Both the position numbers and the translations under genes were made by a program. 40,044 nucleotides of DNA. It comes from Parachlamydia sp. Lineage in GTDB: Bacteria; Chlamydiota; Chlamydiia; Chlamydiales; Parachlamydiaceae. Below are positions 22,219 through 40,044 of the stretch, piece after piece (position 1 is the stretch's first letter; each line of letters starts with the position of its first letter). The DNA lies in NCBI GenBank assembly GCA_021372155.1, contig JAJFUZ010000143.1, positions 1 to 40,044 on the forward strand, in the 5' to 3' direction. Below the pieces are notes generated by a model. That model had not been told where the DNA came from, searched no databases, and saw only the letters and a program-made list of their open reading frames with translations.

Positions 22219-24297
22219 TTACCTCTTAATACGTGAAACGGCGTTCTGCATTTCTTGCGCAGCATTGTTGAGCTGCTCGATCGCATTGTGGAACTGGCGG
22301 ATCGATTCGGTGGTCTGCACGGCCGCTTCGCTGAGCTGGTTGATCGATTCGTTGATCTGCTCCGCACCCTGGGATTGCGCCTGCATGCCCTGGTTGACTG
22401 TTTCGAAGCTGGTGGTCTGCTGCTGGACCTGTTCGATGATCTTGGAAAGCTGCTCGCCAACTGTCGTCACCTGCTTGACGCCCGTATTAATCTCTTCAGA
22501 AAACTTGTCGACTCCCATCACCCCAGCTGAAACTGCTGAGATCATTTCGTTGACCATTTTCTCAATGTCGAGGGTGGCGTTGGCGGTCTGATCGGCGAGG
22601 CGGCGGATTTCGCGCGCGATGACGGCGAAGCTGCGGCCATATTCGCCCGCTTTTTCGGCTTCTATCGCGGCGTTGAGGGAGAGGAGGTTGGTTTGGTCGG
22701 CGACCTTGCCAATGGTCGTCACAATGCTGGTGATGCTGCCGGCCTTTTCATTGAGGACCGCCAGCTTGGAGGCGATGTTGCCCGCCGCATCGACCATCTG
22801 CCGCATGATTGTCTCCATGCGGTTGAGGCCGGCTTTGCCGGATGAGGCAAGTGAGGAGGTCTGCTCGGCGCCGCCGCTGACTTCGCTCATTGTCTTGGCA
22901 AACTCTTTGGCCGTAGCTGAAATTTCACGGGCGGTGGCTGCAATTTCTTTAGTCGTGGCCTCCTGTTCGACGATTGTCGCCTCCTGCTGCTTGGCGGTCG
23001 CTGCGATCTCAGTCGTCGAAGTCGTGAGCTGGATGCCTGTCCATTGTAGCTGCCCGATCAGCTCTTGAAAAGATTCTGCCATCTGGTTGAAAGCGACGCC
23101 GACCTGGCCCACTTCGTCTTCATACAACACGGGGACGCGCGTCGAAAGGTCTCCGCCGGCCAGGTGCTTGGCGGCCGTCACGAGATTGGTCAGGGGGCGG
23201 CTGATGCCCCGCATGATCAAAAAGCCCAGTAAAAAGCCTGCAAGAGCTGCCAGGAGGCAGAGCAGGGAACTGATGCGCTGCTGCAGCTTGTAGCTGTGAA
23301 GGCGCAGCTGCAGAAGGTGGGTCAGCTGATCTATCGAGGCGTCCCAGAAATTCCAGCTGGTCTCGCGCGCTTTGCTGCTTAAAGCGATGAATGCAGCTTC
23401 GTCGGGGGCTATTTCTTTGGCCTCGAGAAGATTTTTTTCCACGTAGTCGATCAAAGCCAGCGAGGCATTGTAGTATTGGTCTGAGGCGTCTTTCAGCTTG
23501 CTTTCGGTTTCAACATCGTTGCGCAGGATCTTCTCGTAATTAAACAGCTTCTGGAGATCTGTCTGAGACTGGTCAAGTTTCGATCGCATCAGGGCAATGA
23601 GGCCTATCAGGGAGGCTCTTTCTGAAGGGCTGATCTCTTTTCGCTGAATGATTCCTTCTCCAAGCGAGCTGATCTTGGAGAGAAGCTCCTGCAATTCCAG
23701 CATCATGAGCGGGCCGCCTTCAATCAGATAGTGGGTGTCGAGTTCAGGATCGACGGTAAGATTGGATGTATCTGCGATATGGCGTGCAAGTGTTTTGAGA
23801 TCCCTCATCAGGGCATCATGCTCTTTGTCGCTTGTGGAAGTGGACATGCTGCCGAGCTGCTGCGCCAGAGCATTCCAGCGATGTTTCAACTCTTCGGGTT
23901 TCAGATTGTTCAAACCCCGCTTCTGAAATTCGCTTGGAGTGGTCGCAAAGGGGATTTCAAATTCCTGATCAGAGGCAATGAGGGTATTGAAATCCGAGCC
24001 GATCTCGCTGTCCAGACCAACCAGATTGGTTTTGAGGGCCTTCTCGCCAGTCTGGATGCGGCTTGCTGTCAGCTTGTGCTTTGGGAGCTTCTCCAACAGC
24101 CCCTTGAGTGGCTGCAGATACTGGATGCCCTGCAGCTCCTTCTCCACAAAATTGATGATTTTATTTTGGGAAGCGAGCATGAAATAGCTGCTCACCAAAA
24201 TCGACAGGCCAAAGAGGCAGCTGATGAAAATAAACTTCTGCTGATAGCTGAATGGGCTGAGCAGTTTTAAAAGTATGGACCCACCTTTATCATTCAT
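22219..24297 (-). CDS. methyl-accepting chemotaxis-type receptor, WspA-like
   Basis: A 692-residue transmembrane receptor. TM1 is at about residues 21-42. An extracytoplasmic helical sensor follows, including TVDPELDTHYLIEGGPLMM. TM2 is at about 343-363 and HAMP at about 364-415 (SRPLTNLVTAAKHLAGGDLS). A long cytoplasmic coiled coil has its hairpin tip at about 531-570 (VADQTNLLSLNAAIEAEKAG, then FAVIAREIRRLADQT). The tip binds CheA/CheW-type partners. The EAEKAGEYGRSF variant and Thr/Ala-rich flanks resemble WspA surface-sensing receptors. No CheR/CheB tether is present at the C-terminus (SRIKR). No che or wsp partner is in the window. AAGGGG upstream of ATG 24297 is a good ribosome site. 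Confidence 0.9.
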   Translation of the reverse strand: MNDKGGSILLKLLSPFSYQQKFIFISCLFGLSILVSSYFMLASQNKIINFVEKELQGIQYLQPLKGLLEKLPKHKLTASRIQTGEKALKTNLVGLDSEIGSDFNTLIASDQEFEIPFATTPSEFQKRGLNNLKPEELKHRWNALAQQLGSMSTSTSDKEHDALMRDLKTLARHIADTSNLTVDPELDTHYLIEGGPLMMLELQELLSKISSLGEGIIQRKEISPSERASLIGLIALMRSKLDQSQTDLQKLFNYEKILRNDVETESKLKDASDQYYNASLALIDYVEKNLLEAKEIAPDEAAFIALSSKARETSWNFWDASIDQLTHLLQLRLHSYKLQQRISSLLCLLAALAGFLLGFLIMRGISRPLTNLVTAAKHLAGGDLSTRVPVLYEDEVGQVGVAFNQMAESFQELIGQLQWTGIQLTTSTTEIAATAKQQEATIVEQEATTKEIAATAREISATAKEFAKTMSEVSGGAEQTSSLASSGKAGLNRMETIMRQMVDAAGNIASKLAVLNEKAGSITSIVTTIGKVADQTNLLSLNAAIEAEKAGEYGRSFAVIAREIRRLADQTANATLDIEKMVNEMISAVSAGVMGVDKFSEEINTGVKQVTTVGEQLSKIIEQVQQQTTSFETVNQGMQAQSQGAEQINESINQLSEAAVQTTESIRQFHNAIEQLNNAAQEMQNAVSRIKR

Positions 24298-29944: not shown

Positions 29945-29962
29945 AAGATATTGAGGCGAGCT

Positions 29963-30235
29963 ATGAAACAACAGACAATCAGCAGCAGGATAAAAACTGA
30001 AACAGCGCTGGAAATCCAGTTTCTCAAAAAAGAATTGGGGATCAACCAAACCTCAATTATTGAATCTGCGATCCATCATCTGTATCAAGAGACAAAACAG
30101 AAGAAAAAGCAATCTCGCTACGAGCTGTTCAAGAAATCGGGTTTCATCGGAGCTATCAAGGCTGAGCCCGATCTTTCGGTCAACTACAAGAAAAAGTTTG
30201 CCGATTATCTGAGTGAAAAGTATGCCCAGAAATGA
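29963..30235 (+). CDS. vapB: VapB-like antitoxin
   Basis: A 90-residue protein. The first 45 residues (MKQQTISSRIKTETALEIQF, LGINQTSIIESAIHHLYQE) have the form of a ribbon-helix-helix DNA-binding domain. The basic, flexible C-terminal half (YELFKKSGFIGAIKAEPDLS) is typical of the toxin-binding tail. ATG 29963 follows GAGGCGAG. It precedes the PIN toxin and overlaps it by 14 nt, the usual antitoxin-first order. It should bind the palindrome over its own promoter. A toxin-antitoxin pair is unusual in reduced Chlamydiaceae genomes but not in environmental chlamydiae. Confidence 0.8.
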   Translation: MKQQTISSRIKTETALEIQFLKKELGINQTSIIESAIHHLYQETKQKKKQSRYELFKKSGFIGAIKAEPDLSVNYKKKFADYLSEKYAQK

Positions 30236-30653
30236 CAATTCGATCATCATCGATACTGGATGCTTCTTAGCTTTAGCGTCTCCAAGTGATACTCACCATA
30301 AAAAAGCGATCAAGCTTTTAAAACAGACGGAAGAACAGGAGTGGATCACGACATGGCCTGTCGTAATAGAAACTTGCCACCTCTTGGGTCGTCTATCAGC
30401 CCTGGAAGTCAATCATTTTCTGGATCTCTATTATCAAGATGCTTTCAGTATATTTGAACTCACCAAAGAACATGTTTCGCGTCTTCAGGATTTAATGATC
30501 AAGTATGCAGAATTGCCTATGGATCTAGCCGACGCCTCTCTGGTTGTTTTAGCCGAATTTCTAGGACATGGAAAAATTTTATCCACAGATTCGAGAGATT
30601 TTTGCACCTATAAATGGAAGAATCGGCATCCATTTCAGAATCTGTTTTACTGA
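30222..30653 (+). CDS. vapC: VapC-like PIN-domain toxin
   Basis: A 143-residue PIN ribonuclease. The acidic metal site is visible as the Asp in SIIIDTGCFLALAS, the Glu in PVVIETCHLLGRL, the Asp in MDLADASLVVLAE, and the Asp in ILSTDSRDFCTY. VapC toxins cleave tRNA or rRNA when free of the antitoxin. All expected acidic residues are present, so it is predicted active. ATG 30222 is chosen over GTG 30213. It is followed by a strong bidirectional terminator. Confidence 0.87.
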   Translation: MPRNDNSIIIDTGCFLALASPSDTHHKKAIKLLKQTEEQEWITTWPVVIETCHLLGRLSALEVNHFLDLYYQDAFSIFELTKEHVSRLQDLMIKYAELPMDLADASLVVLAEFLGHGKILSTDSRDFCTYKWKNRHPFQNLFY

Positions 30654-30664
30654 TCATCATTTGA

Positions 30665-30697
30665 AAAGAGTGCGGCGCCTGAGCGCCGCATCTCTTT
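30665..30697. terminator. bidirectional terminator between vapC and sat-cysC
   Basis: An 8-bp perfect GC-rich stem (30671-30678 with 30683-30690, loop CTGA) is extended by AAAGAG pairing with CTCTTT across a bulged base. A-rich and T-rich flanks serve both directions. It lies between convergent genes and touches the sat-cysC stop. Confidence 0.8.
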
Positions 30698-32408
30698 AAT
30701 CAACGAATTCCTCTTTGCGCAGGTAGTCGATGATCTTTTCAATTGCCTCAGACACATTGCAATTGGCTGCATCGATGACAACCTCTGGATGAGTGGGAAC
30801 CTCATAGGGATCGTCGATGCCGGTGAAGCCTTTGAGTTTCCCTTCTCTGGCCATAGCATAGAGTCCTTTTGTATCTCTGCGTTCACACTCGTCAAGAGAT
30901 GTGCAGACATAGATTTCAATATAGTTGGCCCCATTGCTGATCAGTTTGCGATTATAGATGCGGTCAGCTTCATAAGGGGCGATCAAGGCGCAGATGGCCA
31001 CGCCTCCGTTTTTGCTGATCTCGCTGGCCACGAACCCAACGCGGCGCACATTGAGCGAGCGGTGCTCTTTAGAGAATCCCAGCTCGCTGGATAGATGCAG
31101 GCGGATCAGATCGCCATCCAGAACTGTAACGGCGCGATTCTGCATCTCCATCAGCTTGACGCCAAGGCCATTGGCAATTGTCGATTTTCCAGACCCCGAA
31201 AGGCCTGTGAAAAAGAGGGTGAAGCCCTGTTTCAGGCGGGGAGGATAGACTTTTCTTAGCTCGCTGAACACTTCTGGAAAGGAAAACCACTCGGGGATAT
31301 CTTTGCCTTCGCGCAGCATTTTTCTTAGCTGTGTCCCCGATATATTGAGAACCGTCTTACCTGAAGGCACCTCGTCGATGGGCTGGTAGTTGTTGTCCTC
31401 TTTCACATAGACCATCTCCTTGAAGGGCACGATAGTGATGCCGATCTCTTTTGCAAGGGATTTGGCCAGCTCCTGCGCATCATAGGGTTCATAGAAATCT
31501 TTGCCGCTGCTGTCTTTCCCCGGTCCAGCATGGTCGCGGCCCACGATAAAATGGGTGCATCCATAGTTTCGGCGGATGATCGCATGCCATACGGCTTCCC
31601 TGGGACCTGCCATACGCATGGAAATGGGCAGCAGGCTCAAGGTTGCGCCGCCTTCTGGATAATATTTGATCAGTTTTTTGTAACATTTGACGCGCGTGAA
31701 GTAATCGACGTCGCCGGGTTTTGTCATGCCGACGACAGGATGGACGAGGAGATGAGCGCCGACAGATTTGGCTGCGCGGGTCGTCAGCTCCAGGTGGGCG
31801 CGATGCATGGGATTGCGCGTCTGGAAAGCAACGATTTTCTTATAGCCCTTTTCCTTGAAAATTGCTTTGAGCTCGTCTGGAGTCTTGCGTAAAGATGGGA
31901 AATCGTAGTGCTTGGGCAAGGTCACTTTATCGAGCCGGCCTCCCACATAAAACTCGCCCATCTGGTTGAACAGATAATCGACACCAGGGTGCTCCTGGCT
32001 CGATGTGCCGTAGACCTTTTGAGCTTCGATTTCCTTATTGGGCTTCCAGATATCAGACACTTTCATATATGCCAGAACGAATCCTTCAGGATCGCGTAGG
32101 ATAATTTCACTGGACCCTGCGATTTTCTGCCTGATTTTGTCGTTGATGTCTAAGACGATAGGCATCGGCCAGACAGATCCATCGGGCAAGCGCATCTCCT
32201 GGACCACGCGGTCATACGTTTTGCTGTCCATGAAGCCATCAAGAGGAGCAAATCCTCCGTTCATCAGCAGCTCGATGTCACATAGCTGGCGCTGAGTCAG
32301 GGTCAGCGAAGGAATCGTCGACGATGTGGAAGTTTGTGAGATCAATAGAGGCAGAAGCAGCAGCCAGACTAGGGCTGAAAGGTATTTTGATGTTTGTCTT
32401 GCGGTCAT
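30696..32408 (-). CDS. bifunctional ATP sulfurylase / APS kinase with N-terminal hydrophobic segment
   Basis: A 570-residue enzyme that converts sulfate to APS and then PAPS. The ATP sulfurylase part (about 33-390) has LTQRQLCDIELLMNGGFAPL, the nucleotide motif QTRNPMHRAHLEL (about 196-208), and GRDHAGPGKDSSGKDFYEPY. The APS kinase part (about 397-570) has P-loop FTGLSGSGKSTIA, DGDLIRLHLSSELGFSKEHR and NVRRVGFVASEI. Before the usual start of the family lies a basic, then Leu-rich segment (residues 1-24), like a signal anchor, odd for a cytoplasmic enzyme. No ATG follows before the catalytic core. No reductase or sulfotransferase is nearby. A palindromic element lies upstream. Confidence 0.9.
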   Translation of the reverse strand: MTARQTSKYLSALVWLLLLPLLISQTSTSSTIPSLTLTQRQLCDIELLMNGGFAPLDGFMDSKTYDRVVQEMRLPDGSVWPMPIVLDINDKIRQKIAGSSEIILRDPEGFVLAYMKVSDIWKPNKEIEAQKVYGTSSQEHPGVDYLFNQMGEFYVGGRLDKVTLPKHYDFPSLRKTPDELKAIFKEKGYKKIVAFQTRNPMHRAHLELTTRAAKSVGAHLLVHPVVGMTKPGDVDYFTRVKCYKKLIKYYPEGGATLSLLPISMRMAGPREAVWHAIIRRNYGCTHFIVGRDHAGPGKDSSGKDFYEPYDAQELAKSLAKEIGITIVPFKEMVYVKEDNNYQPIDEVPSGKTVLNISGTQLRKMLREGKDIPEWFSFPEVFSELRKVYPPRLKQGFTLFFTGLSGSGKSTIANGLGVKLMEMQNRAVTVLDGDLIRLHLSSELGFSKEHRSLNVRRVGFVASEISKNGGVAICALIAPYEADRIYNRKLISNGANYIEIYVCTSLDECERRDTKGLYAMAREGKLKGFTGIDDPYEVPTHPEVVIDAANCNVSEAIEKIIDYLRKEEFVD

Positions 32409-33159: not shown

Positions 33160-34344
33160 TTAGGGAAAGTGGAAAGTGCTGATTCGCTCAGCAGCTTCCA
33201 GCGTGTGCGGACGAAGTCCGAAGGATGTCAGGCGAAGGAAGCCTTCACCGCTGGAGCCGAATCCGGCACCGGGGGTTGTGACGATATGCAGTTTTTCAAG
33301 GAAGAGCTGAAAGACATCCCACGATTTTTGCCCCTTCAAGTCGACCCAGAGATAGGGGGCATGCACGCCTCCGAAAACTTCAAAACCCTTCTTTTCCAGA
33401 GCGCGCCTTAAGATCGCTCCATTTTCAAGATAGTGCAGCACCTGTGCGCGGGTCTCCTGAAGGCCTTGCGGGTCTAAGACTGCCAGACCCCCCATTTGGG
33501 AGATATGGGATGCCCCGTTGAAAAGAGTCGTCATGACGCGGTGCCAGTCGCGGATAATCGGCGAGCCATCATCAAATCGCAAAGTGTCTGGGACGACTGT
33601 CCAAGCGAGGCGCACGCCGGTGAAGCCGGCGACTTTTGAAAACGAGCTGATCTCAAGAGCCACTTCGCGCGCTCCCTCTATTTCAAAAATGGAGCGGGGC
33701 AGGGAAGGATCCTGAATGAAGCAGCCGTAGGCGGAATCGAAGAGAATGATCGCGTGTCGCTCTTTCGCATAGGCGACCAGCTCTTCCAGCTGTTCGTGAG
33801 TGGCGACGGCTCCGGTAGGGTTATTGGGAGAGCAGATATAGATCAAGTCGACGTCGAGTGATTTGTCAAAGCGGGGAAAGAAGTTGTTTTCAGGCAGGCA
33901 GGGGAGGAAATGGATCTCAGAGACTCCCTGCATGAGGCTGCCATCGCCATAGACCGGATAGGCAGGATCCTGGATGGCGATGCGGGCCTCTTTTCCAAAG
34001 AGAAGCTGGAGCCTGCCAATATCGCATTTGGCTCCATCGGAAATGAAGATTTCTTCCGGTTTGACTCTGTTTTCATAGAACTGAGAGGCGATTTTTTTGC
34101 GCAATTCGGGCTCCCCCTGGTCTGGGCCATAACCTGTATAGCCCTCTGGTGTGCCCAGGAGGTTTGCTGAGGCCTCCATCGCTTCAACGACATGGGGAAC
34201 GATGGGAAGCGTCGTGTCCCCGATGCCTAAGCTGATTAATTTGGCTTCGGGATGCGCGGCTAAGTATTCCTGCTTGCGCTGATGAATGGTCGGGAAAAGG
34301 TAGCTTGTCTTGAGCTTGGCAAGATTGGGATTGCGCTTTGTCAT
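33160..34344 (-). CDS. dapL: LL-diaminopimelate aminotransferase DapL
   Basis: A PLP enzyme that makes LL-diaminopimelate directly from tetrahydrodipicolinate, the route used by Chlamydiae and plants. It feeds meso-DAP to peptidoglycan. The 394-residue fold-type I protein shows LISLGIGDTTLPIVPHVVEA, GYTGYGPDQGEPELRKKIA, FISDGAKCDIGRLQ, QDPAYPVY, CSPNNPTGA, LFDSAYGCFI and the PLP lysine Lys237 in SSFSKVAGFTGVRLAW. The C-terminus has TPGAGFGSSGEGFLRLTSFG. ATG 34344 has no clear Shine-Dalgarno sequence. It complements the mur operon at the left of the window. Confidence 0.95.
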   Translation of the reverse strand: MTKRNPNLAKLKTSYLFPTIHQRKQEYLAAHPEAKLISLGIGDTTLPIVPHVVEAMEASANLLGTPEGYTGYGPDQGEPELRKKIASQFYENRVKPEEIFISDGAKCDIGRLQLLFGKEARIAIQDPAYPVYGDGSLMQGVSEIHFLPCLPENNFFPRFDKSLDVDLIYICSPNNPTGAVATHEQLEELVAYAKERHAIILFDSAYGCFIQDPSLPRSIFEIEGAREVALEISSFSKVAGFTGVRLAWTVVPDTLRFDDGSPIIRDWHRVMTTLFNGASHISQMGGLAVLDPQGLQETRAQVLHYLENGAILRRALEKKGFEVFGGVHAPYLWVDLKGQKSWDVFQLFLEKLHIVTTPGAGFGSSGEGFLRLTSFGLRPHTLEAAERISTFHFP

Positions 34345-34366
34345 GGTGGTTTATATATACAACAAA

Positions 34367-34939
34367 ATGGTCAATATTTCAAAGAGGCATGCAATCTTGA
34401 GGCGTGTACTAGTTATGCTGATTCTCTCCAGTTGCTCGCTGGTAAATAAGGTGCAGCAAACTACCCAGGTGATCGACGAAAACCGGGAAGCTGTGATTGC
34501 CAGCACCTCAGTGATTTCAGCGAACAAGGATGCTGTCCAGCAGAGCATCGACGTTATTAAGGCCAACATGAAGGTGGTGGAACAGTCCAATCAGGCGATC
34601 AAAGCCAACCAGGAGCTGGTGGCGGGCAGCAACAGAACCATATCCGAAAACGGTGCGCTGATCGCAAAGGCTAATGCCTCCATTGAGCAGAATCAAGTGG
34701 TCATTGCGCGCAGCACGCAAGCGATCAGCAAGAACCTTGATGCGGTAGAAAAAAGCACGCAGATGATCCAACGCAATGCAGAGGTGGTGGAGTATTCGAC
34801 CAAAATTTTGGCCCAGCTGCAGATAAAGCCTACTCCTTTTCATCTGCTGCTGGGAATTGGGCTGCTGCTCTTTTTGTTTTTGACGCCGGTCCTTTGCCTC
34901 GTAGCTCTCTGGAGGATCCTCAGCCATTTGAAGCGCTAA
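34367..34939 (+). CDS. repeat lipoprotein: eight 14-residue repeats and C-terminal membrane helix
   Basis: A 190-residue protein. After a basic N-terminus and hydrophobic stretch, LSSC (Cys at residue 23) fits a lipobox. Residues about 35-146 are eight consecutive 14-residue repeats, each with Ile/Val at position 2, Asn at position 5, Ile/Val at position 9 and usually Ser at position 12 (examples VIDENREAVIASTS, VIKANMKVVEQSNQ, AISKNLDAVEKSTQ). This is two heptads per unit, a long helical coiled coil. A strong membrane helix (about 153-180) and a basic end follow. ATG 34367 is used; ATG 34415 would shorten the signal. It is divergent from dapL. Function is unknown. Confidence 0.75.
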   Translation: MVNISKRHAILRRVLVMLILSSCSLVNKVQQTTQVIDENREAVIASTSVISANKDAVQQSIDVIKANMKVVEQSNQAIKANQELVAGSNRTISENGALIAKANASIEQNQVVIARSTQAISKNLDAVEKSTQMIQRNAEVVEYSTKILAQLQIKPTPFHLLLGIGLLLFLFLTPVLCLVALWRILSHLKR

Positions 34940-34963: not shown

Positions 34964-36142
34964 ATGAAGATTTGTCTGCTGACTTGCCATAACCTCTACG
35001 AATCCAAGCGCTACTTTACGGCGAAATTTGCCGAAGCTTTGAACCGCAAAGGGATTGAGACGCAGATCCTTTCCTGGCCTTATGGACCTGTTCCAGAGCA
35101 CATCGTGAAAGAGATGCAGGATTTAGAACCCGACCTGACCTGCTCCTTCCATCAACTGCCTCCTCAGCAGGATGGACGCTATTTCTGGGATGCCTGGAAG
35201 CATCCCCACTGGACCATTCTGGTCGACCCCGCTTTTTACGATCTGGAGCTGATGCAGAGCCCCTGGTCGATCATCTCCTGCGTCGATCGCACCGATTGCG
35301 AGCTGCTGCGCTCCTACCGCTTTGAAAATGTCTTTTTCTGGCCCCACGCTGTTGAAAGGGAGTTGGCCGCAGAAGACGGGGAGCGGGGGCTCGATGTCGT
35401 CATGCTGGGCACCTGCTACGATCCGGACAATCTGCGCGCCTTCTGGCAAAAACAGTATTCACAGGAAGTCAGCGAGGCAATGGATGATGCCATCGAAATC
35501 ACCTTGTCGGACCGAAACACCTCCTTCTTTCGCGCCCTCATGCAGGCCCTGGCCATGCATGAGATCGATCCGCATGAGGTGGAGTTTGATCAGATGGCCT
35601 ATTATGTTGACAGCTATGCGCGCGGGATCGACCGCATTCAACTGATTCGCTCCATTCGCGACGCACAGATCCATGTGATCGGCGGCAAATGCTGGCGAGA
35701 AGAAAAGCCCATTGAAGACTGGAATTATTATCTGTCGCGCCAATCCAATGTGACCATCCATCCTTCCATACCCTATGAAGAGGCACTTGAGGTTCTGAAG
35801 CATAGCCGCATCTGCCTCAACAGCATGCCCTTCTTCAAGAATGGGACGCACGAACGGGTCTTTGCAGCACTCTCCTGCGGCTCTCTGCCTCTCACTAGCG
35901 ATAACATCTATATGAGGGAGATCTTTGCCGAAGGCGAGGATCTCCTCTTCTATCAGTTTACCCATCTGGACGAGGTCAATGGGAAGGTCCTCTCTCTCCT
36001 GAAAGATGAACCCCGCAGACGGGACATGGCAGCTAGTGGGCAGAGAAAGGTCAAAGTGCATCACACCTGGGATAATCGGGTAGACTGGATGCAACAGGCG
36101 CTTCCGCCCATACTCGATAAAATTCGATCAATTAAAATTTGA
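34964..36142 (+). CDS. CgeB-like GT-B glycosyltransferase
   Basis: A 392-residue protein resembling CgeB/DUF3880-type transferases. The N-terminal Rossmann half starts MKICLLTCHNLYESKRYFTA and includes IILVDPA-type strands (HWTILVDPAFYDLEL). The C-terminal donor-binding half has LEVLKHSRICLNSMPFFKNG, the motif THERVFAALSCGSLPLTSDN and EDLLFYQFTHLDEV. Known relatives modify surface polysaccharide or protein; the donor is unknown. It starts 24 nt after the lipoprotein gene, so the two are probably co-transcribed. It is unrelated in detail to the tandem pair at 9789-11920. Confidence 0.8.
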   Translation: MKICLLTCHNLYESKRYFTAKFAEALNRKGIETQILSWPYGPVPEHIVKEMQDLEPDLTCSFHQLPPQQDGRYFWDAWKHPHWTILVDPAFYDLELMQSPWSIISCVDRTDCELLRSYRFENVFFWPHAVERELAAEDGERGLDVVMLGTCYDPDNLRAFWQKQYSQEVSEAMDDAIEITLSDRNTSFFRALMQALAMHEIDPHEVEFDQMAYYVDSYARGIDRIQLIRSIRDAQIHVIGGKCWREEKPIEDWNYYLSRQSNVTIHPSIPYEEALEVLKHSRICLNSMPFFKNGTHERVFAALSCGSLPLTSDNIYMREIFAEGEDLLFYQFTHLDEVNGKVLSLLKDEPRRRDMAASGQRKVKVHHTWDNRVDWMQQALPPILDKIRSIKI

Positions 36143-36188
36143 TTAAAATATTTGCTTGATATAAGAGGAGCCTTAGATAACAAGGAGG
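36139..36188 (+). promoter_or_regulatory. promoter-like signal and strong ribosome site before the M29-like gene
   Basis: TTGATT (36139-36144) and TATAAG (36160-36165) are only 15 nt apart, a weak promoter candidate. AAGGAGG (36182-36188), 6 nt before ATG 36195, is the best Shine-Dalgarno sequence in the window and fixes the start. Confidence 0.45.
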
Positions 36189-36194
36189 TTCGTC

Positions 36195-37361
36195 ATGCAA
36201 ACGTCTACAATCGCGTCAGTCCTTTCTGGAAAAAAATTCCCGCCATTCGATCTTGCCAGGCTGCTGCGCACGGTCTTTGATCCCAAACAAGGAGAGAAGC
36301 TCTGCATTCTGATCGACTTTGAAGAACCTGAAGACATCCTCCATTTTGCCTTTCTCAAAAAAGAGGGCTTCGAAATCCAGAAAAGGGCTTACAATTTCTT
36401 TTATCAACCGTTGCGTCAGGGACTTGCGCAGGAGCTTGGTCTCTCAGCCTGCGATTTCTTTGCTTATCAGGCCACCGGTGGCAGCAACCTCGAATTGCCT
36501 GCGACTGCGCTTACCCCCGAAGGCAAGAGTGTCAGCTTTCAAAAAGAGATCTATCCTGTCTATGATCTTATCCTCTGCATCTCGACTTTCTCAGCCACCG
36601 CGCCTTTAACCGCAACGGCGAAGAAATTTGGCTTTCGCGGCGCCACCATGCATGGCATGAACGACGCCATCTTACAATCCGGTCTTGCAGTCGATTACAA
36701 CGAGGTGAGCCGCTTCACAGAAAAACTGAGAAAGGGGATGAGCCGAGCCGATAGCGTCGAGATCGAATTTGACTTCGATCATCAGCCCTACCACCTGGCC
36801 ATTGAGCTTGGCCGCCAAGAGGCGCAAAAGAGCCACGGCATCTGCCGCGAAAGCCCAGATATTGCCAATCTGCCTGCCGGAGAGGTCTATTTTGTTCCTG
36901 TCGATGGTAAAGGGACCTTCCCCATCAAATTTGACGATGGCACTCTCGCCCTCATGGATGTCGAGAAGGGCAGGGTCCATAAGGTGACATTCGTCAGGGG
37001 TAATCCGCACACTGTCGCAGAGATCCAGGAAAAATTCAGCAGCGATCCTGCGAGCGCCATTTTAGGAGAGCTTGGGTTTGGCACCCAGGTGCTTCCCCAT
37101 TCGGGACGCGATATTCAGGATGAAAAGATCTTTGGCACCTTCCACCTGGCGACGGGCAGGAATGACCACTTGAGTGGATCCGTCACGCTCGACCGCTTTG
37201 CCAACAGACGCAATGCCACTCACGACGACATTCTATTCTCGCCCTTCAAGACTCCTGAGATCCACATCAAACAGGTGAGCATGAATAGACAGGGGAAGAG
37301 GGAAGTGCTCATTGAAAACTATGAGCCCACAGCCTACCTCTGGAAGCTTCTGCAAGGATGA
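36195..37361 (+). CDS. M29 aminopeptidase-like protein
   Basis: A 388-residue protein resembling M29 (thermophilic AmpS/AmpT type) aminopeptidases. Predicted metal ligands appear kept: Glu230 in LPAGEVYFVPVDGKG, Glu292 in LGELGFGTQ, His325 in ATGRNDHLSG, and His343 with Asp345 in ATHDDILFSP. It is slightly shorter than the usual 410 residues. The middle part (FSATAPLTATAKKFGFRGAT) follows the family pattern. It could cleave amino-terminal residues or act on a small amide. No signal peptide is present. It is joined to the methyltransferase gene by an ATGA overlap, so both probably act in one pathway. Its role there is inferred only. Confidence 0.72.
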   Translation: MQTSTIASVLSGKKFPPFDLARLLRTVFDPKQGEKLCILIDFEEPEDILHFAFLKKEGFEIQKRAYNFFYQPLRQGLAQELGLSACDFFAYQATGGSNLELPATALTPEGKSVSFQKEIYPVYDLILCISTFSATAPLTATAKKFGFRGATMHGMNDAILQSGLAVDYNEVSRFTEKLRKGMSRADSVEIEFDFDHQPYHLAIELGRQEAQKSHGICRESPDIANLPAGEVYFVPVDGKGTFPIKFDDGTLALMDVEKGRVHKVTFVRGNPHTVAEIQEKFSSDPASAILGELGFGTQVLPHSGRDIQDEKIFGTFHLATGRNDHLSGSVTLDRFANRRNATHDDILFSPFKTPEIHIKQVSMNRQGKREVLIENYEPTAYLWKLLQG

Positions 37362-38083
37362 CCGGATATTATTCATCTGACCGGGCCCGAAGCGAATACC
37401 TTCTCTTCCATTATGGAAGTGATGAAGATTTAAGTGCTGACGATTTAATTGCAAAAACAGCGCTTCATTTTCCTGTGCGCTGTGTCACGGAATGTCTGGA
37501 TCCAAAGCTGCCTCCCCATGCTAGGGCGCTGGATCTTGGCTGTGCTGTGGGACGGTCGAGTTTTGAGCTGGCGCGGCATTGTGAAAAGGTAGTCGGCGTC
37601 GACAGCTCCAAAATTTTTATCGAGGCTGCCCGCACAATCCAAAAGCAAGGATTTTTAGAATATCCCATCATCGAAGAAGGCTCCAAAATAGGATTGCGAC
37701 TGGCACAGAGGCCGGAGGGCATTTCACAGGAGCGAATTGAGTTTGTGTATCAAGATGCCCTCGGATTCTGTCGCTCATCCGCTCTTTTCGATGTCGTCCT
37801 GGTTGCCAACCTGATCTGCCGCTTGGAAAATCCCAAAGCCCTTCTAGCTGTGCTGTCAGCAATTGTCTCGTCGGGAGGACAACTCATTTTAACCTCCCCA
37901 TATTCCTGGCTGGAAGACTATACGCCGCGTGCGAACTGGCTTGATGGGCTACAGAGCCTGAAAGATATCTTAGGAATTCATTTTGAATTACAGCGGACTT
38001 TCGACATGCCTTTCCTGATTCGCGAGCATCTGCGCAAGTATCAGTGTGTCATTGCCCAAGCGTCAATCTGGAAGAAAAAATAA
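37358..38083 (+). CDS. stand-alone OvoA C-terminal-type (ovothiol) N-methyltransferase
   Basis: A 241-residue class I SAM methyltransferase matching, from memory, the C-terminal domain of OvoA, which N1-methylates the imidazole of 5-thiohistidine to give ovothiol. Signatures are YYSSDRARSEYLLFHYGSDE at the N-terminus, FPVRCV, the SAM loop LDLGCAVGRSSFELARH (58-74), VVGVDSSKIFIEAA, VLVANLICRLENP, and LILTSPYSWLEDYTPRANWL (177-196). In OvoA this is fused to a sulfoxide synthase; here it is separate and no synthase is in the window. Coupled to the M29-like gene by ATGA. The exact substrate is an inference. A long hairpin follows the stop immediately. Confidence 0.82.
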   Translation: MTGYYSSDRARSEYLLFHYGSDEDLSADDLIAKTALHFPVRCVTECLDPKLPPHARALDLGCAVGRSSFELARHCEKVVGVDSSKIFIEAARTIQKQGFLEYPIIEEGSKIGLRLAQRPEGISQERIEFVYQDALGFCRSSALFDVVLVANLICRLENPKALLAVLSAIVSSGGQLILTSPYSWLEDYTPRANWLDGLQSLKDILGIHFELQRTFDMPFLIREHLRKYQCVIAQASIWKKK

Positions 38084-38160
38084 TACCGAAGAACATTGAA
38101 AATTTGGCAAATGGGCTTTCGCGCAAGTCCATTTGCCAAATTTTCAATGTTCTTCGGTAT
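38083..38160 (-). terminator. very long (36-bp) near-perfect hairpin
   Basis: Arms 38083-38118 and 38125-38160 pair over 36 bp with a single G-U pair and a 6-nt loop TCGCGC. The arm starts on the last base of the methyltransferase stop. Read on the minus strand it follows the tRNA-Ser 3' end by 4 nt and leads into TTATTTTTTC, so it can terminate the tRNA transcript. The length is far above that of ordinary terminators. Confidence 0.75.
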
Positions 38161-38164
38161 AATA

Positions 38165-38291: not shown

Positions 38292-38314
38292 TCAGGGTCT
38301 TACAATCAGGGTCT
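38289..38314 (+). repeat. CAATCAGGGTCT repeat, copies 2 and 3
   Basis: Two copies of the 12-mer (38289-38300 and 38303-38314) stand in tandem 2 nt apart, between the tRNA promoter and the VgrG-like stop codon. A third copy is at 34947. Confidence 0.55.
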
Positions 38315-40044
38315 AGCCAAGTTTGGCTTTTTTGACGGCGGCTTCCAAGGCACTTGATTCCAAGCCAATCTTATTTTTGCCCTTCATGGCCACCTGGTTT
38401 TTGGCTTCGACGTTGAAATCTTCGGTGACGCTGATGGAGAGTGTTTTGCAATCGATCGCGATGGAATCCGGCTTTAGGACGATCTTGCTTTCACCTGGCT
38501 TGCCTTTGCAGGAAAGGGTCATTGCCTTCCCATCGAAGTTGGTCTGTTGGGTGACGCCGGCGCTCTTATCTTCCAGGGATAGCGTGAGGCCTGTTTCCTT
38601 CGTAATCTGGATAAAAAGCTTCTTTTTATCCTTCTCCTCGACACAGAGGGAAATATCCTGCTGTTGGATCTGGAAAGTCTGGGTCTCAGTCGCGGAAGCC
38701 TTTTGAACGATAGTGAAGACAGATTTTTTGCCGTCGACAAACTCATGGCGAAGCAAGGTAAATTCGTCCTTTCCATTGGAGGCGAGCACAATCTGATGGA
38801 TCTGCACCCCAGTGGGATTGGGTGGCTGGACCAGCTTTTGGTGGCCTTTGGGACGTATATTGTCTGCTGTATGTAGGTACATGTCAAGTACCACTTCATC
38901 ATCCTTGCCAAAAGGAAAGTAGAAATGTCCTGGCATGTTGACAGCAAGAGGAACAACCATATTCTTGCCGTCTTCAACCAGAGGGGCTTTCACCAGATAG
39001 AATCCCAGGGGTGAATCATCCGCTTTTTGAATTTTGTAGGTGGATTGCTCCTTGTCGCCCACGTCGCAGAAGATTCTTCCTTTGATTTCGAAAGGATAAA
39101 CGGGAGGGACAATGAAGGGACGGTCGATAAAGGGTTCATCCTCTTCTTCCAGATGGGTGGTCAGACTGATGCGGTAGCTTTCCATTGGAGCGGGTTTGTC
39201 TATTGTCTTACCGACTTTATGCGCTCTAAAAGTGAGTTCCCGCACTCGAAATGTTTTGCCTTTGAAGCAGGCGTCGCTAGACCAGTAGACAGTTTCTTTT
39301 TCCAGAAATTTGATCGCACAGCCTGGCAGCAATTGATCCAGACCAAAATCGTGAAATTTTTGAAATGTCAGGCTTAGCCGGTCTTTTTGAGGAATCAAAA
39401 TGGATTTAACCGGATCGGGAGATTGTTGAGGATAGCGAAGGTTGTCATCAGAATTGAGAGTTTCATGTGCCACCTGCTTAAAGGCCTTTGGGTCGTTTTC
39501 TTCCTTGTTTTCAACGCTGTCAAAAGTCTGTTTTCGCTTCTTGCTATTAAAAGTCGGTGTCGGGGCGCACTGTAACTTAGGAAAAACTACCCATTCCTCG
39601 TCTACATCCAATGGCTTGCCATCTACTTTGTTTTTTTTGCCAAGAATGGTGTAGCTTTTCTTCTTATAATCATAAGACCAAACGCCATTTTCTTTATGAA
39701 GGATCCACATCAGGAATGAGTAAAAACTGGTTTGCTTATCAGCAGGGACCCCTTCGCGAAAAGGCAGGGAAAATGCGGTAATTTTATGCTGAGTTTCCAG
39801 ATCTGCCCAATCATACTTGATCTTAATTTCAGGGTTGCACTGTTTTTCAAAAATTTGCTTCAGTGACTGATCCACATAGACGCCTGTCGGAAAATGATCC
39901 CCCCATGTCACCTTGGCGGGATCTTCGACAGAAATGGTATAGACTCTTTCGGGGCGCTTCAGATCGATCTGTTCAGATGGTTCGACTGTCAGATCTTTTT
40001 TGATGACGATCCCCTCGATTTCTAACCAGGGTGGACCCTTTTCT
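38313..40044 (-). CDS. VgrG/Gp27-Gp5-like contractile-injection spike protein, 5' end outside the window
   Basis: The frame runs open to the window edge, so the N-terminus is missing; at least 576 residues are visible. The early part (QTSFYSFLMWILHKENGVWSYDYKKKSYTI) resembles the gp27-like portion of VgrG. A central OB-like region has YPFEIKGRIFCDVGDKE and FYFPFGKDDEVVLDMYLHTAD. The end has the alternating beta-strand pattern of a spike helix: ITKETGLTLSLEDKSAGV, KIVLKPDSIAIDCKTLSISV, MKGKNKIGLESSALEAA. Such spikes tip type VI-like or phage-tail-like injection systems and carry effectors. No sheath, tube or baseplate gene is visible. The assignment is by pattern and moderately sure. Confidence 0.6.
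   Translation of the reverse strand, partial: EKGPPWLEIEGIVIKKDLTVEPSEQIDLKRPERVYTISVEDPAKVTWGDHFPTGVYVDQSLKQIFEKQCNPEIKIKYDWADLETQHKITAFSLPFREGVPADKQTSFYSFLMWILHKENGVWSYDYKKKSYTILGKKNKVDGKPLDVDEEWVVFPKLQCAPTPTFNSKKRKQTFDSVENKEENDPKAFKQVAHETLNSDDNLRYPQQSPDPVKSILIPQKDRLSLTFQKFHDFGLDQLLPGCAIKFLEKETVYWSSDACFKGKTFRVRELTFRAHKVGKTIDKPAPMESYRISLTTHLEEEDEPFIDRPFIVPPVYPFEIKGRIFCDVGDKEQSTYKIQKADDSPLGFYLVKAPLVEDGKNMVVPLAVNMPGHFYFPFGKDDEVVLDMYLHTADNIRPKGHQKLVQPPNPTGVQIHQIVLASNGKDEFTLLRHEFVDGKKSVFTIVQKASATETQTFQIQQQDISLCVEEKDKKKLFIQITKETGLTLSLEDKSAGVTQQTNFDGKAMTLSCKGKPGESKIVLKPDSIAIDCKTLSISVTEDFNVEAKNQVAMKGKNKIGLESSALEAAVKKAKLG

Follow-up and report, generated by a model that had tools for sequence, protein, structure and literature searches.

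A stand-alone SAM-dependent methyltransferase and a metalloenzyme resembling the M29 aminopeptidases are encoded by overlapping genes in a Parachlamydia genome, and together they constitute a two-gene module that is widespread among bacteria of the PVC group and not specific to chlamydiae. We tentatively propose that this module serves the formation of a methylated, ovothiol-like metabolite of the 5-thiohistidine type in bacteria lacking OvoA, the M29-like enzyme making or freeing the substrate of the methyltransferase.

Genomic context of the gene pair

The analysed stretch of DNA, hereafter the window, comprises 40,044 nucleotides from a Parachlamydia sp. MAG (4.0 Mb in 402 contigs, 93.8% complete, 8% contamination). 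Its first 10 kb encode Mur ligases, MraY and a MurC-Ddl fusion, which identifies the contig as chlamydial, such a fusion being typical of chlamydiae. The M29-like protein and the methyltransferase both group with counterparts from other genomes of the order, chlamydiae among them. The features of the pair and its surroundings are listed in Table 1; the two open reading frames and their ATGA overlap are exactly as given in the original prediction.

Table 1. Features of the module and of the adjoining part of the window.
Feature	Position	Strand	Evidence or remark
Repeat lipoprotein	34310-34939	+	Upstream of the pair
CgeB-like glycosyltransferase (PF13524)	34964-36142	+	Upstream of the pair
Shine-Dalgarno sequence AAGGAGGT, 5 nt ahead of the start codon of the M29-like gene	36182-36189	+	Sequence
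M29/NicX-superfamily metalloenzyme, upstream gene of the module	36195-37361	+	ORF, 388 aa; remote PF02073; AlphaFold; invariant residues
ATGA overlap, methyltransferase start within the stop of the M29-like gene; translational coupling	37358-37361	+	Sequence
METHYLTRANSFERASE, stand-alone OvoM/OvsM-type SAM-dependent imidazole N-methyltransferase (predicted)	37358-38083	+	ORF, 241 aa; TIGR04345; OvsM/OvoM by sequence and fold
Inverted repeat, 84 nt, 42-nt arms 93% complementary, no spacer	38080-38163		Between the methyltransferase stop and a tRNA-Ser(CGA) gene

The M29-like gene had also been credited with the strongest ribosome-binding site of the window. This is fair but minor, since a second copy of the 8-mer AAGGAGGT occurs on the minus strand of the window and two matches are no more than expected by chance. 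The inverted repeat directly 3' of the methyltransferase stop is a possible end of transcription.

The glycosyltransferase and the repeat lipoprotein do lie upstream, as had been pointed out, but neither belongs to the module. The former represents a chlamydial multigene family found in 50 of 177 genomes of the order, and only two chlamydial genera were seen to have a member close to the pair; the latter is without a counterpart at the other pair loci. A role of the glycosyltransferase as a SenB-like selenosugar synthase was likewise ruled out, as it gave no such NCBIfam match. Peptide modification, raised as another function of the pair, is not borne out, as no open reading frame resembling a precursor was found next to the two genes of the window or in between them.

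The window also contains, in this chlamydial genome, a gene for a bifunctional ATP sulfurylase/APS kinase (30696-32408, minus strand; PRK05537, 875 bits) and one for a methyl-accepting chemotaxis protein with HAMP and MCPsignal domains (22219-24297, minus strand). A small open reading frame followed by a PIN-domain protein (29951-30653, plus strand) has a layout like that of a toxin-antitoxin pair, and an open-ended 576-aa protein (38313-40043, minus strand) shows a weak VgrG/TssI match in its C-terminal part (NF041249, E 4e-4).

The methyltransferase

The methyltransferase aligns with the whole of TIGR04345, the family of the OvoA C-terminal domain (model positions 1-242 of 242), with 181.6 bits (E 1.8e-53), above the curated cut-off of 170 bits. 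This is its best family match, in agreement with the original prediction. Three strong relatives were found in the PDB by sequence search: OvsM, OvoM and a full OvoA (8khq). OvoM of Sulfuricurvum (9bxl/9bxn) and OvsM of Marinimicrobium koreense (9bxh/9bxk) are stand-alone N-methyltransferases of ovothiol and ovoselenol synthesis, whose substrates are 5-thiohistidine and 5-selenohistidine, respectively. The window protein matches them over its whole length (E about 1e-42), and its predicted model (pLDDT 94.2) reaches a TM of 0.89-0.90 to both; the next fold group, with clearly lower scores, includes NodS, METTL9 and CARNMT1. Identity with the bacillithiol methyltransferase NmbA was ruled out, since the resemblance to 9ri2 is at the superfamily level only (E 0.16; TM 0.52).

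Unlike the OvoA domain of the same family, the window methyltransferase is unfused and its genome is without an OvoA sulfoxide synthase. The unfused state, predicted at the outset, is real but neither unusual nor new in itself, since OvoM and OvsM of the same family are already known; most TIGR04345 copies of Verrucomicrobiota also stand alone.

The residues N151, R155, P181, E223, K227 and Q229, which are common to OvoM, OvsM and canonical OvoA domains, are all present in the window protein, together with SAM motif I. Among 68 methyltransferases linked to an M29-like gene, N151 and P181 are invariant, while E223, K227 and Q229 are retained in 63, 64 and 62 sequences, respectively; these five positions are mostly lost in the divergent OvoA domains described below. 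The differences from OvoM and OvsM are the M29-like genetic partner, the OvoA-less genome, a branch of its own in the tree, with OvsM nearest, and the replacement of D154 by Cys. The same replacement occurs in 59 of the 68 M29-linked methyltransferases, so that the acceptor may differ, and in three of the seven OvoA-linked ones.

The M29-like protein

PF02073, the M29 family model, matches the upstream gene product with only 10.4 bits (E 0.27), below its gathering cut-off of 27 bits, and matched 13 of 31 homologues, at best with E 5.8e-5. The protein reached no Pfam or NCBIfam family in profile searches, and a PDB sequence search with the M29-like profile gave no match. Its AlphaFold model (pLDDT 94.7) was compared with solved structures by Foldseek, where the nearest fold is that of the 2,5-dihydroxypyridine dioxygenase NicX (7cn3; TM 0.58/0.64, E 1e-15), followed by the M29 aminopeptidases PepS and AmpT (TM 0.51-0.54), with E values ranging from 2e-11 to 1e-15. 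A viral fold library search returned nothing, and a plasmid search yielded remote M29-type relatives only, of about 30% identity.

All 68 homologues retain the predicted metal ligands E230, E292, H317, H343 and D345. The residues H153, H214, C217, R322, D324 and H325 are also invariant in the family, H153 and H214 not being so in four paralogues. M29 aminopeptidases carry the motif EEHYHD, represented in AmpS by E253, E319, H348, Y355, H381 and D383 (PMC7023490). With these enzymes (PF02073; AmpT 2ayi, PepS 4icq, AmpS) the M29-like protein has in common the fold and the Glu, Glu, His, His, Asp ligands, but it falls below the family cut-off, lacks the catalytic Tyr and possesses extra invariant His and Cys residues. 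The invariant D324-H325 pair lies near the place of the Tyr, and when AmpT is aligned to a paralogue its Tyr falls in a two-residue gap.

NicX binds a single Fe(II) by His265, Ser302, His318 and Asp320 and acts on an N-heterocycle (PMC7910607). In a comparison made without coordinates, in which the Ser could not be placed, the two His and the Asp have counterparts here, but H317 and H343 are 26 residues apart as against 53 in NicX. Thus the closest solved fold is that of NicX, while the ligand spacing, with two Glu, is M29-like. From profiles and the predicted model, the protein would possess an M29/NicX fold and metal site, yet it would be placed in neither family. The M29-type ligand set favours hydrolysis, and the kinship with NicX is compatible with redox chemistry on an N-heterocycle. 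As regards the original assignment, the intact metal ligands and a remote likeness at the level of the fold stand, but a true M29 aminopeptidase does not, given the sub-threshold score, the missing Tyr and NicX as the closest fold.

A second paralogous M29-like family was observed at four Verrucomicrobiota loci (L211-L214); it has the same ligands, Glu-His in place of D324-H325, and scores of 130-140 bits to the profile.

Distribution and gene order

Among 234 genomes of the order to which the window belongs, nine contain some M29-like match, six of them strong and one a broken copy (genome G100). The methyltransferase is encoded in five genomes, each time adjoining the M29-like gene. Two chlamydiae possess the M29-like gene or its remains but no methyltransferase, namely G077 (79% complete) and G100. 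In the latter genome, which is 98% complete, the broken M29-like gene (L021, G100:C1:643316-643818) is interrupted by in-frame TGA codons.

A scan of genome contigs revealed more pairs in Verrucomicrobia and other PVC bacteria. In a survey of 388 Verrucomicrobiota genomes, where M29-like genes were called at over 550 bits, the M29-like gene is present in 57 genomes, a stand-alone TIGR04345 methyltransferase in 64 and OvoA with a fused methyltransferase domain in 18. Co-occurrence is near-perfect: a stand-alone methyltransferase is encoded by all 57 genomes with the M29-like gene (Fisher p 5e-61, which ignores shared ancestry). In 33 of them it lies within 200 nt downstream and in 11 the distance downstream is 0.4-6 kb, while the other 13 have it elsewhere, so that co-occurrence persists with the genes far apart or on other contigs; most marine Opitutia whose M29-like gene does not adjoin the methyltransferase gene carry the latter elsewhere. 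All 50 same-strand pairs at the retrieved loci have the M29-like gene upstream; in 31 of them the genes overlap or are separated by at most 28 nt (overlaps in 13). In two Planctomycetota the gene order is reversed with the genes still adjacent. The pair is thus conserved across the PVC group, and its absence from other genomes, on which the original prediction would have foundered, is refuted.

Further genes accompany the pair in particular lineages only. In six Verrucomicrobiota loci (L130, L135, L136, L146, L147 and L168) a single-domain cupin of about 125 aa, with an invariant CCCGTTRR motif and an HxH..E..H metal site, is encoded between the two genes; it was rejected as a part of the module, since it is confined to a sublineage and does not occur in the genome of the window. 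A polar amino-acid ABC transporter (binding protein, permease and ATPase) follows the methyltransferase gene at L096, L098, L099 and L100, all in OvoA genomes, and at L031, and is similarly lineage-limited.

Relation to OvoA

Mutual exclusion with OvoA was not foreseen in the original prediction, which had recommended a search for this enzyme elsewhere in the genome. With the OvoA sulfoxide synthase called by TIGR04344 at over 400 bits, no match above the cut-off was found in the genome of the window (a MAG 93.8% complete) or in 13 further genomes. The FGE-sulfatase proteins of the window's genome were considered as a hidden OvoA and ruled out, the two FGE proteins being sulfatase-linked and kinase-fused. 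No C-S bond-forming enzyme acting on histidine was recognisable in the same genome, and we know of nothing in the M29/NicX fold that forms such a bond on histidine.

In the Verrucomicrobiota sample the exclusion is strict: all 18 OvoA genomes have a TIGR04344 match above the cut-off, and none of the 57 carrying the M29-like gene does. Taken over all 388 genomes the exclusion is weak by itself (p 0.053), but within the 64 genomes possessing a stand-alone methyltransferase the split is perfect (p 1.6e-9, ignoring kinship), as all seven that lack the M29-like gene encode OvoA. The M29-like enzyme and OvoA therefore look like alternative partners of the stand-alone methyltransferase.

Two groups can be distinguished among the 18 OvoA proteins. 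Ten have canonical methyltransferase domains with the motifs NLIDRL, SPYTW and IRET..K, as in 8khq, while in the eight divergent ones (L073, L075, L078-L083) the fused domain has lost residues that OvoM, OvsM and canonical OvoA have in common. A stand-alone methyltransferase is present in seven of the eight genomes with a divergent OvoA and in none of the ten with a canonical one (p 2.5e-4, uncorrected for kinship). This looks like complementation, in which the separate enzyme methylates 5-thiohistidine in place of the decayed OvoA domain. Since the genomes with a methyltransferase but no M29-like gene carry an OvoA whose fused domain is degraded, the probable substrate of the stand-alone enzyme is 5-thiohistidine or a closely similar imidazole compound.

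In the tree, M29-linked methyltransferases form a branch apart from OvoA domains, and three OvoA-linked ones are placed among them (SH-aLRT 97). This nesting is only suggestive, because a single M29-linked clade is not rejected by the AU test (p 0.40); the OvoA-linked enzymes make up only two clades.

Proposed pathway and alternatives

In the proposed pathway, the M29-like protein would use E230/E292/H317/H343/D345 to hold one or two metal ions and would supply an imidazole substrate, functionally replacing OvoA. The stand-alone methyltransferase would then move the methyl group of SAM onto an imidazole nitrogen of this substrate, as OvoM does on 5-thiohistidine. We infer 5-thiohistidine, or a compound closely similar to it, as the substrate, made or released by the M29-like enzyme, which may form the C-S bond or hydrolyse a conjugate. 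A common pathway for a thiohistidine-type metabolite, as originally predicted, is supported as probable. Several points count against the proposed pathway: the window's genome has no recognisable enzyme for C-S bond formation on histidine, D154 is replaced in most M29-linked methyltransferases, the co-occurrence statistics ignore shared ancestry, and two chlamydiae carry the M29-like gene or its remains without the methyltransferase. In a more specific form, the M29/NicX-like protein would itself place sulfur (or selenium) on the imidazole of histidine, providing a second, OvoA-independent bacterial origin of 5-thiohistidine, with the methyltransferase finishing the product; we consider this distinctly unlikely.

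Salvage is a somewhat unlikely alternative: a true metallo-hydrolase would release 5-thiohistidine, or some other imidazole amino acid, from a conjugate or peptide that the cell has imported, and this amino acid would then be modified by the methyltransferase. The ligand set and spacing, which are those of M29 hydrolases and not of NicX, are consistent with it, as are the ABC transporter genes at L031 and in four OvoA genomes and the report of ovothiol in amoebae, the hosts of many chlamydiae (PMC12631010). However, the protein lacks the catalytic Tyr of M29 enzymes, most loci, the window included, have no such transporter, and many carriers appear to be free-living Verrucomicrobia; the constant absence of OvoA alongside the M29-like gene is also left unexplained.

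Less probable still is a sulfur-free pathway in which the methyltransferase has shifted to another imidazole acceptor, such as histidine, a dipeptide or another N-heterocycle, that the M29/NicX-like enzyme makes or breaks. The lack of a recognisable C-S forming enzyme, the prevalent Cys154, the separate branch of M29-linked methyltransferases and the action of NicX on an N-heterocycle (PMC7910607) point in this direction, and the fold relatives include methyltransferases of carnosine (CARNMT1) and of protein histidine (METTL9). Against this, most residues common to OvoM, OvsM and OvoA are kept, and genomes whose OvoA has a divergent fused domain contain the same Cys154 subtype.

Co-inheritance of the two genes within lineages, with no common pathway, is very improbable: the counts are uncorrected for kinship and the AU test leaves room for a single clade, but co-occurrence holds for distant loci, Planctomycetota again have the two genes side by side, in the opposite order, and no sampled OvoA genome carries the M29-like gene. 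Least credible is a plain M29 aminopeptidase acting on a modified peptide beside the methyltransferase, for although the five M29 ligands are conserved and the operon is tight in many genomes, the protein scores under the PF02073 cut-off and lacks the Tyr, its invariant H153 and H214 do not extend to the paralogues, and the window shows no precursor-like open reading frame at the two genes.

Implications

The M29-like partner and the exclusion of OvoA appear to be undescribed, whereas stand-alone OvoM and OvsM are already known; among the papers searched, none was found to link ovothiol with Verrucomicrobia or with such a partner. If the proposed pathway, with the M29-like enzyme supplying an ovothiol-type substrate, is correct, metabolites of this type would be made or handled in OvoA-less chlamydiae, Verrucomicrobia and Planctomycetes, which gene surveys would score as non-producers because they carry no OvoA. 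It would also offer an explanation for those Verrucomicrobia in which an OvoA whose methyltransferase domain has decayed is retained alongside a separate methyltransferase. The module further points to one uncharacterised metalloenzyme family whose constant genetic partner belongs to a substrate class that can be predicted, so that the function of the family can be tested directly.
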